Made by a program: the position numbers and the translations under genes. A stretch of DNA of 35,106 nucleotides from Clostridia bacterium. GTDB taxonomy: Bacteria > Bacillota > Clostridia > Peptostreptococcales > Acidaminobacteraceae. Below, piece after piece: positions 1-32,406 of the stretch. The notes below the pieces were generated by a model that saw nothing but the letters and a program-made list of their open reading frames with translations, searched no databases and was not told the DNA's origin. The DNA is taken from the NCBI GenBank assembly GCA_014859095.1, contig JACUUV010000029.1, positions 1-35,106 on the forward strand, given 5' to 3'. Position 1 is the first letter of the stretch, and the number at the start of each line of letters is the position of its first letter.

Positions 1-165
1 ATTTCCAGTTGCTTTTGGAGAAAACTATACTAGCCTCATGTGTCTATGTTCTATACAGTACATAAGGAAACTTATTAGCGTCTCAGTTGATATCTCGAGA
101 TGGAACTGAGGAAATATCTGCACTTGATTATTCGGAAGCTTTGCTGATGCACCCCTCCTTATTTT
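1..165. other. Non-coding flank downstream of bioY
   Basis: I see no convincing gene here. The stretch lies 3' of bioY, which is on the minus strand. It contains a structured repeat-like segment at 66-110, listed separately, and no clear intrinsic terminator. Read on the minus strand there is a strong Shine-Dalgarno-like AAGGAGG just past the bioY stop, but no properly spaced ATG follows it. Confidence 0.5.
66..110 (-). repeat. Diverged copy of the 103-bp repeat element
   Basis: Bases 66-88 are an exact 23-nt reverse complement of 31051-31073, inside the tandem repeat after phoR. Similarity continues past 88 without gaps but weaker. Both copies keep a small palindrome: ATCTCGAGAT here (92-101) and ATTTCGAAAT there (31038-31047). 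They differ at two paired positions, which is a compensatory change. Here the palindrome is enclosed by a 7-bp stem, CTCAGTT (82-88) with AACTGAG (104-110). In the other copy only CTCA/TGAG of that outer stem remains. Both elements lie 3' of a gene (bioY, phoR) and have the same sense as that gene's transcript. Confidence 0.75.
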
Positions 166-15982: not shown

Positions 15983-17923
15983 ATGTTATTTGGTGTGGAT
16001 TATTATCCTGAACACTGGCCGGAATCGAAAATGGAAGACGATTTGAAAAGAATTGTGGAACTGGGTGCCAATACTGTCAGAATCGGTGAATTCGCATGGC
16101 ATATGATGGAGCCGAGAGAAGGGGATTATGATTTTTCCTTTTTTGATAGGGCCATCGAACGCATCAAGTCGCATGGTCTTCAGATCATTTTTGGAACTCC
16201 GACAGCCACATTTCCGGCTTGGATCGCGAGCAAATACCCTGAGATCCTTTCAAAAGATGAATATGGACATCAGAGATCATTTGGAGGAAGAAGACAGTAC
16301 TGTTATAATTCGGATGTTTACAAAGATAAAACAGAGAAAATTGTGTCAGCACTCATGAAACATTATGCAAATGAGGAAGGCGTTGTCGCATGGCAGATCG
16401 ATAATGAGCTGGGACATGAAGGTTCAGATCAATGTTACTGTGATATTTGTGTGAGAGATTTCAGAAGATATTTGAACACAAAATACAAAACCATCGAGCA
16501 GCTCAATAGTCGCTACGGAACCATATTTTGGGGACAGACTTACAATGATTTTGGTGAAGTTCCAGCACCACTCCCCACTATAACCACCCATAATCCTTCG
16601 CTTCAACTCGATTGGGCAAGATTTAGGTCTGAATCTATCAATGCCTATGCAAAGCTTCAGATTGATATTGTCAGATCGTACAAAAAGGAACATCAAAAAG
16701 TAACACATAATTTGTTTGGTGGATTTTTCGACAGGGCTTATGACCAAAATGTTCTGGCTTCAAATTTGGACGTGGTATCCTATGACAATTATCCTGTGTG
16801 GGGTGGTCTGGAAAAGCCATTGTCACCAGCTCATATCGCAATGACACATGATTATATCAGAGGACTCAAAAAACAAAATTTCTGGATATTGGAAGAGCTC
16901 ATGGGGGCGCAAGGTCATACCGTAATCGGTTACCTGCCTAGACCTGGGGAAGCAAGGCTTTGGTCACATCAAGCCATGGCCAGGGGCTGTGAATCCCTTC
17001 TATATTTCAGATGGCGCGGGATGACCAAGGGAGCGGAACAGTTCTGTCAGGGCATTCTGGACGCGGATGATCGAATCAATGAGAAATATACCGAAGCACA
17101 AACATTTTTTAGTGATGTGAATGGGCTTGAAGCCATCTATAATTCTGAGATTCACTCAGACGTCGCAATCCTTTACGATTATGACAACAGATGGTCCTGG
17201 CACAATCAACCGCAGAGCCATGCTTTCAATTACACGGACGAAATCTTGAGATTTTATACGCCTTATCATGATCTGAATATCATGACTGATGTCATCAACC
17301 TCAAAAAATCTCTTGAGAAATATAAAGTGCTGATGGTCCCAACGATGCAGATTATGGATCAGGAAACCATCGAGAGATTGAGGACTTTCGCTTCAAATGG
17401 AGGTGCAGTGGTTTTAGGATTCAGAAGTGGCATAAAAGATCGGGACAACAATCTCTATTTTGGAGAGAGTCCTATAAAATCACTCATAGGTGCAGAAATA
17501 AAGAATTATGAGTCTCTTGGGCACGGAGTGGTCAAACCGCTTCTAAGTTTCGTGAAGACAAACCCAACCCAAAAGACATGCAGTGTATGGCGTGATCTGA
17601 TTGAGCCGATTGATGCTGAACCTTTGCTTAAATATGATGATGAATTTTATGGGCATTATGCCGCAGTCGTCAAAAATAAAGTTGGATTTGGAAGTGTTTA
17701 TTATGTAGGATGTGGTCTTTCTGAAAATGGAATGCATGACATCATTAATGACATCATTTTAGATCAAGGCATAAGTCCAAATTTGACCCCTGAGGGTGTT
17801 GAAAGCGTGATCAGAAATTCTGATGGACACGCCTTTGAAATTCTTCTCAATCACAATGGAACGCGCGTTGAACATAACGGGCTTAACCTGAAACCATATG
17901 ATTTCAAAATAATAAAAAAATAA
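15983..17923 (+). CDS. GH42 beta-galactosidase
   Basis: This intracellular glycoside hydrolase releases galactose from small beta-galactosides with retention of configuration. The 646 residues start directly with the TIM barrel (FGVDYYPEHWPE), with no signal peptide. The acid/base is E142 in IDNELGHE, and the nucleophile is most likely E304 in WILEELMG. Four cysteines, C107, C151, C153 and C156, match the zinc cluster of GH42 enzymes such as Thermus A4 beta-galactosidase. The trimerisation and C-terminal beta domains appear complete. A GAGGTGA ribosome site precedes the ATG. It is the last gene of mglBAC and ends in a strong terminator, which supports uptake followed by cytoplasmic hydrolysis of galactosides. 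Galactose catabolism genes (galK, galT) are not in the window. Confidence 0.94.
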   Translation: MLFGVDYYPEHWPESKMEDDLKRIVELGANTVRIGEFAWHMMEPREGDYDFSFFDRAIERIKSHGLQIIFGTPTATFPAWIASKYPEILSKDEYGHQRSFGGRRQYCYNSDVYKDKTEKIVSALMKHYANEEGVVAWQIDNELGHEGSDQCYCDICVRDFRRYLNTKYKTIEQLNSRYGTIFWGQTYNDFGEVPAPLPTITTHNPSLQLDWARFRSESINAYAKLQIDIVRSYKKEHQKVTHNLFGGFFDRAYDQNVLASNLDVVSYDNYPVWGGLEKPLSPAHIAMTHDYIRGLKKQNFWILEELMGAQGHTVIGYLPRPGEARLWSHQAMARGCESLLYFRWRGMTKGAEQFCQGILDADDRINEKYTEAQTFFSDVNGLEAIYNSEIHSDVAILYDYDNRWSWHNQPQSHAFNYTDEILRFYTPYHDLNIMTDVINLKKSLEKYKVLMVPTMQIMDQETIERLRTFASNGGAVVLGFRSGIKDRDNNLYFGESPIKSLIGAEIKNYESLGHGVVKPLLSFVKTNPTQKTCSVWRDLIEPIDAEPLLKYDDEFYGHYAAVVKNKVGFGSVYYVGCGLSENGMHDIINDIILDQGISPNLTPEGVESVIRNSDGHAFEILLNHNGTRVEHNGLNLKPYDFKIIKK

Positions 17924-17952
17924 GAGCATGCCTATGCACGCTCTTATTTTTT
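17915..17952. terminator. Bidirectional terminator between convergent genes
   Basis: A perfect 13-bp stem (AAAAAATAAGAGC with GCTCTTATTTTTT) around a 12-base loop. A-run and T-run on opposite sides serve both the beta-galactosidase (+) and the flavoprotein gene (-). Confidence 0.9.
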
Positions 17953-29239: not shown

Positions 29240-30988
29240 ATGAGGAAAAAAATAATAGGGTCTTATTTATTGCTTATAGTTTTACTGGCAGCCATTTTTT
29301 CATGGATTGTCAGAGACGCACTTCTGGATGCCATGTTGATACAGTTTGAACATAATCTGATCAACGAAGCTGAGCTTGTGAAAACTATGATTGAAAATGA
29401 AGGTAATGAGTATGTGGATTTTCAAAAGTTTTCAGACCTCATAAAGGAAAAGATCAATGTCAGAGTGACCATCGTCGATAAAACGGGTCAGGTTCTTTCG
29501 GATACGGATGAGAATTCCGAGAATATGATGAACCATATCAACAGAGACGAAATCAAGTCTGCATTTGAAACCGGAGCAACAAGTGTCAGGTTGAGATATA
29601 GCGACACCGTCAAGGCGGATTATCTGTATGCGGCGACAGTTTTCAAATTGGACGATTCTGAATATGTCATCAGGATTTCAAAGCCTCTGCTGGAACTCAA
29701 GGCATTCAATTACCAAATGCTGAATTTTGCTTTGGCCGCCATTATAATCTCATCTATATTGGCATCTTTAATGGCCATTTTGATGGTCAGAAAAATCACC
29801 AAACCGATCTACGAACTTACGAAAGCGGCAAACAGCATTGCCGAAGGGGACTATGGTAGAAAAATCTATACACAGTCAAAAGATCAGATTGGCGATTTGA
29901 CAGCTTCCTTCAATAAAATGAGTCTCAATTTGGAAGTTTCAATGAAGGAAGTGAAAAAAAGAAATATAGAACTCGAATCTATTTTAAACAGTATGATCAA
30001 CGGGATCATTGCAATCGATCAGGACAAGAATATTCTTATGATCAACAACATCAGTTTCGAAATCTTGGGGTTGCCTGATGAGTTTGTGACTGAAAATGAA
30101 TCCATGTACAAAATTATCAGAAATGATGAAGTGGCTGAAATGATTGAAAAGTCCATCAGCTATGGCGAATCACAAGTCAGAGAACTCAAATATCTGAGTT
30201 TGGACAAAGTGCTTAGAATCTACGTGAATCCGATCATGACCTCCACATCGGATATCATAGGAGGCATTGTCGTGATACAGGATGTCACACAAATCAGAAA
30301 GCTTGAAAAGATGAGAAGCGATTTCGTCTCGAATGTTTCTCATGAGCTTAAAACGCCGCTCACCTCCATTAAAGGTTTTGTGGACACACTAAAGGGTGGT
30401 GCCCTGGATAACAAGGAGACTGCACTTCGATTTCTTGAAATAATCGATATCGAATCCGATCGACTTTACAGATTGATCAATGACATCCTGCTCCTCTCTG
30501 AGATTGAAACCATGGAGCGGGAACCTGACAAGACGGAAGTCCATATCAACGAAATTGTGGATGAAGTGATTGAAATGCTTGCGCTTAAGGCCAGTGACAA
30601 AAACCTGATGCTTAAGAAAAGAATTGAAGGAGATTTCTATATCAATGCAAACGCAGATCGAATCAAGCAAATGTTCATCAATTTGGTAGACAACGCAATC
30701 AAATATACCGAATTCGGGGAAGTCGAAGTGAGCCTTGAAGCGGAAGGCTCATGGATCAAGACGATTGTTTCCGATACTGGAATCGGATTCGACGAAAAAT
30801 ACAAAGAAAGGTTGTTTGAACGATTTTACAGGGTGGATAAAGGAAGAAGCCGCTCATATGGTGGAACTGGACTTGGACTTTCCATAGTCAAACATATTGT
30901 TTTGCTCTACAAGGGCAAAATTTCGGTAGATAGCACACCCGGCAAGGGAACCCGCTTTGAAATCCTGTTGCCCAACAAGCGTTCATAG
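29240..30988 (+). CDS. phoR: Phosphate-regulon sensor histidine kinase PhoR
   Basis: This membrane sensor kinase is the partner of PhoP. In 582 residues TM1 is at about 5-25. An extracellular PAS-like domain (about 30-160) precedes TM2 (162-183), HAMP (184-236) and a cytoplasmic PAS domain (about 242-352). HisKA has H368 in NVSHELKTPLTSIKGF. HATPase_c carries NLVDNAIKYT, DTGIGF, ERFYRVDKGRSR and GGTGLGLSIVK. This is the full PhoR layout of Gram-positive bacteria. The stop codon touches the first copy of the 103-bp tandem repeat, and the transcript should end at the hairpin 31197-31248. Confidence 0.92.
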   Translation: MRKKIIGSYLLLIVLLAAIFSWIVRDALLDAMLIQFEHNLINEAELVKTMIENEGNEYVDFQKFSDLIKEKINVRVTIVDKTGQVLSDTDENSENMMNHINRDEIKSAFETGATSVRLRYSDTVKADYLYAATVFKLDDSEYVIRISKPLLELKAFNYQMLNFALAAIIISSILASLMAILMVRKITKPIYELTKAANSIAEGDYGRKIYTQSKDQIGDLTASFNKMSLNLEVSMKEVKKRNIELESILNSMINGIIAIDQDKNILMINNISFEILGLPDEFVTENESMYKIIRNDEVAEMIEKSISYGESQVRELKYLSLDKVLRIYVNPIMTSTSDIIGGIVVIQDVTQIRKLEKMRSDFVSNVSHELKTPLTSIKGFVDTLKGGALDNKETALRFLEIIDIESDRLYRLINDILLLSEIETMEREPDKTEVHINEIVDEVIEMLALKASDKNLMLKKRIEGDFYINANADRIKQMFINLVDNAIKYTEFGEVEVSLEAEGSWIKTIVSDTGIGFDEKYKERLFERFYRVDKGRSRSYGGTGLGLSIVKHIVLLYKGKISVDSTPGKGTRFEILLPNKRS

Positions 30989-31220
30989 CGAAAACTAATA
31001 GGACACCGCATCACCGCTGCGTAATGTTCTCATCAAAATTTCGAAATATAAACTGAGACGCTAATAAGTTTCCTCCGGAAACTTAACTACGCGAAAACTA
31101 ATAGGACACCGCATCACCGCTGCGTAATGTTCTCATCAAAATTTCGAAATATAAACTGAGACGCTAATAAGTTTCCTCCGGAAACTTAACTACGCGAAAA
31201 CTAATAGGACACCGCATCAC
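30988..31220 (+). repeat. 103-bp tandem repeat (2 full copies plus 27 bp)
   Basis: Copies lie at 30988-31090, 31091-31193 and 31194-31220 (partial); I see no difference between the copies. Each starts with GCG and the 24-base 5' arm of the phoR terminator (30991-31014, 31094-31117, 31197-31220). In full copies a 76-base body follows, holding the palindrome ATTTCGAAAT, the block shared with 66-88, and a 9-bp hairpin TAAGTTTCC-TCC-GGAAACTTA. The first copy begins at the last base of the phoR stop codon. Sequence identity implies recent duplication. Confidence 0.95.
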
Positions 31221-31248
31221 TATGTGATGCGGTGTCCTATTAGTTTTT
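31197..31248 (+). terminator. Terminator after phoR (24-bp perfect stem)
   Basis: The third 5' arm, AAAACTAATAGG...CATCAC (31197-31220), pairs perfectly with 31224-31247 across the 3-base loop TAT, and the 3' arm ends in a T-run. Identical 5' arms in the two upstream repeat copies could also pair with the single 3' arm. Confidence 0.92.
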
Positions 31249-31292
31249 AACACTTTACACGGATTTAACATAGAGCATATTTGCCTATAACA
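31247..31292 (+). promoter_or_regulatory. Candidate Pho boxes and promoter of pstS
   Basis: TTAACA (31247), TTTACA (31254), TTAACA (31265) and ATAACA (31287) resemble PhoP-binding repeats. The last three fall on an 11-base register, with one weak position at 31276. A -10-like TATAAC lies at 31286-31291 with no good -35, as expected for a PhoP-activated promoter. The leader to pstS is about 75 bases. Confidence 0.5.
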
Positions 31293-31371
31293 TGATGGTG
31301 TTAAAGTAACTTTGTAAGACAGATTGAAGCGGCACCTAAAAAAAGCAAACTATAATGGAGGAATTGTTAGA

Positions 31372-32406
31372 ATGAAGAATATGAAAATTTTTGGTTTGGT
31401 TATGTTGATGGCAATCATGGTATTTACGCTTGCCGCATGTGGTTCAAAAACAGAAGATTTGGCTCCGGTAGCGGCAACTCAGACACCTGGTGAAACATCG
31501 ACAGAAGCACCTGTAAATGAGAAAGTCGAACTCAAAGGTCAAGTCATAGTGGATGGTTCTGGAACAGTTTACCCGCTTATGGCACATATCGCTGAAGAAT
31601 ATATGGTCAATGAGCAAAACGGAGTCAGTGTACAGGTAGGAAGAGCGGGATCAAGTGCTGGTCTCAAGAAATTCATTCCTGGTGAACTTGATTTTGTAGA
31701 TTCATCCAGAGCAATCAAGGATGAAGAAATCGCTGGACTAAAGGAAAATGGCCTCGAATACGGCGTAGATGTGTATGAATTCAAATTGGCTCTCGACGGA
31801 CTTACAATGGTCATCAGCAAAGAAAACACTTGGGCGACTGAAATGACAAAAGAAGAAATTATAGATATGTACCTTTCAAAAACATACAGAGATGACGACA
31901 AAGTACTTTGGTCAGACATCAGATCTGAGTGGCCAAGTGAAGAAATCAAGTTTTATGGACCAAATGAGAACCATGGTACTTACGAATTCTTCTACGAGGT
32001 GATTTTGAAGAAACGAGACATGGTAACTACAGCAAACTTGCAACAAGAGTATTCAACACTTGTGGACCTTGTGTCCAAAGACAAGAATGCAATCGCTTTC
32101 TTCGGATTCGGTTACTATGTGAACAACCAAGACAAATTGCAAGCGGTCAAAATCGATTTTGGTAACGGACCAGTAGCACCTGAGCTTGCGACAATCGGTG
32201 AAGATCTTGCTTACGCGGGATTCACAAGACCGGTATTCACATACCTCAATGTGAAATATGCAAAAGAAAAACCACAAGTACTTGACTATGCAATGTATGC
32301 AGTATCACAAGAAGGCGCTGCCAGACTTGCAGGAGAAAATGGATTCGCTCCACTTCCTGCAGCAACATATGAAACATATGCCAAGCAGCTTGAAGCTTTA
32401 AAATAA
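31372..32406 (+). CDS. pstS: Phosphate-binding lipoprotein PstS
   Basis: This is the extracellular phosphate-binding subunit of the high-affinity Pst importer. In 344 residues the signal peptide ends in a lipobox LAAC with Cys23, followed by a short Thr/Pro/Glu-rich linker. Phosphate-site motifs DGSGTVYPLM, GSSAGLKKFIPGELDFVDSSR and NENHGTYEFFYE are visible. Late motifs YAGFTRPVFTYLNVKY and AQEGAARLA-like are typical of the family. I chose ATG 31372 because GGAGG lies 10 bases upstream; the upstream TTG at 31324 has no site. A strong hairpin without a U-run follows, likely to favour PstS over the permease genes. pstC, pstA and pstB follow in order. Confidence 0.94.
   Translation: MKNMKIFGLVMLMAIMVFTLAACGSKTEDLAPVAATQTPGETSTEAPVNEKVELKGQVIVDGSGTVYPLMAHIAEEYMVNEQNGVSVQVGRAGSSAGLKKFIPGELDFVDSSRAIKDEEIAGLKENGLEYGVDVYEFKLALDGLTMVISKENTWATEMTKEEIIDMYLSKTYRDDDKVLWSDIRSEWPSEEIKFYGPNENHGTYEFFYEVILKKRDMVTTANLQQEYSTLVDLVSKDKNAIAFFGFGYYVNNQDKLQAVKIDFGNGPVAPELATIGEDLAYAGFTRPVFTYLNVKYAKEKPQVLDYAMYAVSQEGAARLAGENGFAPLPAATYETYAKQLEALK

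Follow-up and report, generated by a model that had tools for sequence, protein, structure and literature searches.

A probable REP-like palindromic repeat at the foot of the phoR terminator in a Clostridia bacterium

Introduction

The described systems closest to the repeat reported here are REP/BIME and REPIN (with RAYT), which are short extragenic palindromes that occur in many copies, carry GTAG at the foot of the hairpin, and form composite arrays of several hairpins. According to PMC8266576, the GTAG at the hairpin foot is used by TnpA-REP for binding and cleavage, and REPs are usually present in more than 100 copies (PMC2817692). Group IIC introns target intrinsic terminators (PMC4424553). 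In pneumococcus, SPRITE, BOX, and RUP are small interspersed repeats that are over-represented between convergent genes, and SPRITE resembles a terminator (PMC3049150). The insertion sequences ISPa11, ISPpu9, ISPpu10, and ISRm22 target REP palindromes, ISRm22 at the axis, and their direct repeats are absent or amount to 2 bp or 6 bp (PMC1525189).

The element that we found between phoR and pstS in a Clostridia bacterium appears to share the above features with REP/BIME and REPIN, but its tail abuts terminators of which one arm is duplicated, an arrangement absent from the available parts of the REP papers compared; it also has no established cognate RAYT, and its copies are counted in tens (at least 27–31 matches per genome). 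With group IIC introns it shares the terminator as a target, as 44 of the 74 element tails analyzed directly abut a terminator-type hairpin. Those introns, however, are retroelements inserted after the terminator, whereas the present element is approximately 58 bp long, non-coding, and accompanied by a duplicated terminator arm. SPRITE is itself terminator-like, whereas in the present family the terminator differs from locus to locus. The REP-targeting insertion sequences likewise have a palindrome as their target, but the duplication seen here instead extends 13–41 nt into the hairpin and follows hairpin size. The element is a terminator-seated variant of the small palindromic repeats. None of the titles and abstract beginnings surveyed described this combination of a repeat with a duplicated arm, which is not proof of its absence from the literature. 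We propose, with a probability of roughly 0.7, that the 103-bp unit at the phoR locus represents a REP-like palindrome, non-autonomous and belonging to this genus, which entered at the foot of the phoR terminator.

Structure of the phoR–pst locus

The window (the whole 35,106-nt stretch of DNA analyzed) contains on its plus strand a sensor kinase gene of the Pho regulon, of PhoR/PnpS type (29240–30988 in the ORF list, the final three bases being the stop codon; NCBIfam PnpS NF046044, 410 bits with a cut-off of 400), and pstS (31372–32406), followed by pstC, pstA, and pstB (NCBIfam TIGR02136, TIGR02138, TIGR00974, and TIGR00972, all above cut-off). A tandem array with a period of 103, 2.3 copies, and a 100% match (TRF score 466) occupies 30988–31220. 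It consists of two identical 103-bp units and a third copy of their first 27 bases, followed by a loop and a single 3′ arm; the three 27-nt copies are identical and have their first bases at 30988, 31091, and 31194.

On the plus strand, the first of the orphan 5′ arms of the terminator (30991–31014; the identity between copies starts at 30988 and includes the preceding GCG) is followed by a stretch of 21 nt (31015–31035, its length measured on the identical unit 2) that separates the duplicated arm from the 58-nt element. Element copy 1 (31036–31093) comprises a head, GAGACGC, hairpin A (31065–31085), and the tail CTACGCG; GTAG precedes hairpin A on the minus strand and corresponds to the plus-strand CTAC at 31087–31090. 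The second orphan arm (31094–31117) and element copy 2 (31139–31196), identical to copy 1, lead into the working terminator (31197–31248), with its 5′ arm at 31197–31220, loop at 31221–31223, 3′ arm at 31224–31247, and a T run. Its stem is perfect over 24 bp, and the sole 3′ arm is 100% complementary to each of the three 24-nt 5′ arms. The exact match between the units spans 130 bp at an offset of 103 and does not extend 5′ of 30988. The 268-nt array RNA had a folding energy of −88.5 kcal/mol and a z value of −10.45 in relation to 200 shuffles, and the fold is therefore not due to chance. The layout read in the initial annotation was thus borne out, with three identical 5′ arms for one 3′ arm and two identical 103-bp units between a phoR/pnpS-type gene and pstSCAB. 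A stretch similar to the 21-nt sequence at 31015–31035 was also seen at the phoR locus of a second genome of the genus (G001).

An Rfam search of 30700–31500 at E ≤ 5 returned eight rows, none of which reached the gathering score or represented a group II intron. A group IIC intron was rejected as a candidate, as the ribozyme fold was not found, the element has only approximately 58 nt, and these Rfam rows included no such intron.

The window genome (G000) is a draft of 134 contigs and 2.98 Mb, and short-read assembly can miscount an exact repeat of 130 bp; the tandem doubling could in principle have been assembled falsely from one terminator plus one element. We consider this improbable, since an arm copy also precedes the element elsewhere, both at further loci and in further assemblies, and diverged copies (L094, L100) are hard to explain in this way. 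Such an error would leave only the exact unit count in the window in doubt: the existence of the 103-bp unit is backed independently by homologous loci, and the copy number of exactly two is without such backing.

Copies, distribution, and anatomy of the element

A genome-wide search showed that the body of the array is not unique and belongs to a dispersed repeat. When positions 30988–31247 were searched against the whole window genome, 43 matches were obtained at E ≤ 10 and 37 at E ≤ 0.06. Of the latter, four fall within the array and one repeats another place in the reverse reading, which leaves 32 further matches elsewhere in the same genome. A fragment of the family lies near the left end of the window (65–101, minus strand; C104:65-101; E 3e-8). 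With a 68-nt query, at least 27 matches were found in G000, at least 27 in G001, and at least 31 in G002, all members of one genus; these counts are lower bounds because the candidates were only partly scored. With similarly part-scored candidates, the same query produced no match in G003, the fourth member of the genus, and a single weak one (E 0.009) across 37 genomes at greater distance. A 62-nt consensus was found at E ≤ 1e-4 in 3 of 198 genomes of the order, again G000, G001, and G002, and the element was undetected in G003 and the 194 other genomes. All three element-bearing genomes are fragmented. In G000, 13 contig ends (including that at window positions 65–101) lie within 250 nt of an element match, so that the family seems to break the assembly and the real copy numbers are probably higher.

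The conserved part of the element is 58 bp long and ends with CTACGCG. The core common to the copies is CTGAGACGCTAATAAGTTTCC, a 3-nt loop, and GGAAACTTA(A/C)CTACGCG; some copies are, by eye, longer composites in which extra hairpins are spaced by CTACGC. CTAC is located directly 3′ of hairpin A in 74 of 74 tails, a figure of little weight because these columns lay in the search pattern (two substitutions allowed). In seven loci with a short head (L016, L017, L019, L020, L100, L117, and L118), the duplicated arm ends 0–1 nt 5′ of the 58-nt element, which is 19–20 nt before GAGACGC. In the other loci, 2–115 nt (21 in the window) separate the upstream arm from the element, and its left end is therefore not fixed in every copy. 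Two or more tails on one strand were present in 7 of 61 loci. As judged by a crude rule based on the longest open frames, the copies sit between genes.

Hairpins beside the element tail

To define the surroundings of the tail, we used 74 distinct tails, drawn from 61 loci, for which the downstream sequence was long enough. In 58 of these tails, a stem of ≥9 bp began 0–1 nt after the GCG, compared with 41 of 1480 random positions (2.8%) in the same loci, a comparison that may be mildly biased, as the loci were retrieved by similarity to queries containing some terminator sequence. The abutting hairpins were of the terminator type in 44 cases and of another class in 14, and the hairpin offset was 0 in 60 of the 62 tails for which the scan found a hairpin. 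Reading of the rows for the remaining 16 tails gave seven truncated arms between tandem copies (two in L009, and one each in L092, L100, L111, L118, and the window), four shorter perfect hairpins (L025, L120, L121, and L127), four bulged or mismatched hairpins of a kind that the scan disallows (L099, L104, L110, and L124), and one tail at a contig end (L032). Altogether, 19 of the 74 tails adjoin the different hairpin class. This class is part of another repeat and not a terminator, and in several copies it continues into GGGGACAGG-type repeats.

The gene context of 48 terminator-type tails was assigned by a crude rule, namely the longest open frames of the flanking sequence, with 14 tails of either class having short flanks. 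It was convergent in 23 cases, co-directional in seven, divergent in three, and unclear in three; in 12, a gene end was present on the terminator side only, which places the element beyond that gene's terminator. These 12 contexts fit a target that would be a DNA hairpin rather than a transcript.

A separate terminator scan covered 400 kb of G000 and 100 kb of G003. The G000 sequence contained 45 terminator-like hairpins, two of them with CTACGC at the foot, and the stems of these two were not longer (p = 0.40). Element-free stems of G000 did not differ significantly from those of G003 (nine hairpins in 100 kb; p = 0.12). The scan thus showed no difference between the terminator stems beside the elements and other stems. 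The scanner misses most of the known element terminators in those stretches, and its output therefore provides no usable rate of occupancy.

A nearly identical terminator hairpin (AAAGCCAAGAGTGC..GCACTCTTGGCTTT), with a 2-nt loop in both orientations (GA or TC), was observed at unrelated genes with and without the element (L019, L100, L102, L117, L118, L156, L158, L163, and L164), and orthologous genes can have quite different terminators. At L167 and L181 (G001:C24:11800-13400), a long inverted duplication is centred in the terminator hairpin beside the element, such that the gene end, element, and terminator run on as their own reverse complement; this could reflect either a genuine fold-back event or a turn-around in the assembly. 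In the window, a long-stem terminator at 17915–17952 has the foot common to many element loci (AAAAATAAGAGC..GCTCTTATTTTT) and no adjoining element.

Duplication of the terminator arm

Copies of the terminator arm upstream of the element were counted at a score of at least 12 for 54 terminator-type tails, i.e., the 74 tails less the 19 with the other hairpin class and less L012, which has too little upstream sequence. A stretch of the element's own terminator was found upstream of 32 of the 54 tails, whereas pairing with unrelated terminators gave such a stretch in 80 of 2718 control pairings. Counted per locus, the upstream repeat was present in 27 of 45; no arm copy reached the threshold in the remaining 22 tails (18 loci).

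The copy starts at terminator base 0–2, that is, at the hairpin foot, in 30 of the 32 cases. In the 24 rows with a complete hairpin, it ends a median of 4 nt beyond the loop (from −8 to +12), having reached 13–41 nt into the hairpin, and its end correlates with the size of stem plus loop (Spearman 0.67, p = 0.0003), although these rows are not independent because tandem and orthologous copies are included. A MITE-type target-site duplication of fixed length was rejected, given this spread of end points and their correlation with hairpin size. At L011, L018, L114, and L116, the upstream copy is the whole terminator or nearly so, which makes duplication of the whole terminator and subsequent decay of the 3′ arm another possible route. 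At L099 (G001:C82), the final codons of the gene upstream fall within the duplicated stretch, and the stem of the new terminator pairs over these codons.

Orthologous sites that lack the element were then compared with occupied ones. The flanks of L019 (G000) match G002:C59 up to query position 484 and again from 544, with an overlap of 21 bases and a plain terminator in G002. For L118 (G002), which has two units, the first of them internally deleted, the overlap with G001:C110 is 22 bases; the site in G000 also has a plain terminator, at a contig break (G000:C45/C41). By these alignments, the two loci with element-free orthologues show a duplication of 21–22 bp. The orthologues of L018 and L117 lack the element and have a different terminator hairpin, and hence there is turnover of the terminators themselves; since orthologous terminators can differ strongly, arms and elements may sometimes move together.

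At the phoR locus, a long composite element in G001 is, by eye, followed by a single arm copy, then by a short element and the terminator. By eye, no element is present in the phoR–pstS interval of G003 (L081), G011 (L082), or three Fusibacter-type genomes (L054, L055, and L056), and G002, the genome of which is 77% complete, gave no PhoR match at the threshold used. The named sequence nearest to PhoR was from the Clostridiales MAG JAIOSU (88%), followed by Fusibacter-type genomes (60–61%). The locus thus varies between relatives, in which the element is absent or, in G001, present in a two-element arrangement different from that of the window. The proposal of the initial annotation that an insertion duplicated terminator sequence and was then amplified in tandem gained support, as the body recurs with a like duplication, orthologues without the element were found for two loci, and relatives differ at phoR.

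Pairing of the 3′ arm and transcription of pst

It had also been proposed that the 3′ arm could pair with any of the three 5′ arms and that the alternatives might tune read-through from phoPR into pstSCAB. Forcing the 3′ arm onto arm 1, 2, or 3 gave minimum energies of −87.4, −80.7, and −88.5 kcal/mol, respectively, and in an equilibrium model the mean ensemble pairing of the 3′ arm was 0.16 with arm 1, approximately 0 with arm 2, and 0.84 with arm 3. By equilibrium energy alone, arm 1 is predicted to be a real competitor, a point that speaks against our interpretation; the order of transcription would favor arm 3.

A regulatory role, in which the extra 5′ arms compete for the 3′ arm and set the read-through, is favored by the finding that pairing with arm 1 lies only 1.1 kcal/mol above that with arm 3 and takes up 16% of the ensemble, and by four loci (L016, L100, L117, and L118) at which, as judged by eye, conservation of the upstream 5′ arm exceeds that of its own 3′ arm. 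Against it, arm 2 is negligible in the model, 84% of the pairing is with the adjacent arm, the equilibrium calculation takes no account of the transcription of arm 3 immediately ahead of the 3′ arm, and 18 of 45 loci have no arm copy at the score used. Three positions of the true phoR terminator stem, all of them compensated, distinguish G000 from G001, and the stem is perfect in both genomes, whereas the spare upstream arm of G001 has two uncompensated mismatches in relation to its own stem; this indicates that the real hairpin is kept and the spare arm drifts. Furthermore, a stretch on the plus strand 5′ of pstS (31254–31306; TTTACA, TTTAACA, and similar, by eye), which we take to be Pho-box-like, lies between the terminator and pstS in the window and in element-free relatives alike (by eye), and pst need not, therefore, depend on read-through. 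Thus, given the drift of the spare arm, the compensated changes in the true stem, and what seems to be a separate control region upstream of pst, tuning of read-through by the arms is very improbable; the pairing model and the comparison of the G000 and G001 arms both disfavor it. Most likely, the element is a tolerated selfish repeat with little effect on phoR–pst transcription.

Possible mechanisms of insertion

For a REP-like repeat at the phoR terminator, we propose that the conserved 58 bp (head, hairpin A, and tail CTACGCG) would insert at the foot of the terminator hairpin and that the arm copy would be produced at insertion. A complete terminator would stay downstream, and the host gene would be little disturbed. 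The 27-bp arms could then act as direct repeats, at which slippage or unequal exchange would yield two units and three arms. We prefer a hairpin-dependent, single-strand or replication-fork process, for which both an enzyme and template switching are possible, because the duplication tracks the hairpin and not a fixed length and because the 12 of 48 copies with a gene end on the terminator side only ill suit a transcript-based process.

More tentatively, and at less than even odds, the family may have a target-site duplication whose extent is set by the hairpin entered, running from its foot to a little beyond the apex, with each insertion rebuilding the full terminator downstream. If this is the case, the terminator would be a self-repairing, safe insertion site, and the mechanism would match none that we know of. 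The insertion route would read DNA structure and not sequence, and the host gene would be spared by restoration of its terminator, a logic comparable to that of elements restoring a tRNA gene. The family would also represent a natural record of the joint turnover of terminators and small repeats, and a test case for the spread of REP-like repeats without a proven transposase.

As for an enzyme, Y1_Tnp matches numbered six in G000, two in G001, two in G002, and three in G003 (one of these below cut-off). The six matches in the element's own genome, the GTAG at the hairpin foot on its minus strand, and a RAYT-like gene of G000 (265 aa, L039), which begins approximately 0.12 kb downstream of an element fragment located at the end of a contig, speak for a true REP mobilized by a RAYT (TnpA-REP, Y1/HUH) transposase with a preference for hairpin targets. 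However, G003 lacks the element despite its three matches, and the G001 orthologue of the gene (80% identical) lies between GGGGACAGG-type repeats, with no element core or tail motif in 3.3 kb by an exact-motif scan; the one 10-nt match to hairpin B there is probably due to chance. A further point against such an origin is that target duplication is not known for the IS200/IS605 mechanism. Although RAYT-like transposases are present, their link to the element is not convincing, and we regard mobilization by RAYT as possible but rather unlikely.

It is also possible, if again unlikely, that replication stalls just past the apex of the terminator hairpin, takes an element from another place as its template, and resumes at that terminator's A-rich foot. 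Such template switching would agree with arm copies that run from the foot to a median of 4 nt past the loop, with the offset of 0 in 60 of 62 tails with a hairpin, and with the L099 copy, in which the new stem pairs over the copied final codons of the gene upstream. In contrast, the constant 3′ end of the element (though required by the search pattern) and its near-constant 5′ end, 19–20 nt before GAGACGC in the seven short-head loci, point to an enzyme.

A second repeat family (GGGGACAGGT..GGTACC; L036, L039, and L131) borders the RAYT-like gene in G001 and is also found just 3′ of the G000 orthologue. Several of its copies hold the present element beside a ATTTTTTGCTTCGCAAAAAAT hairpin.
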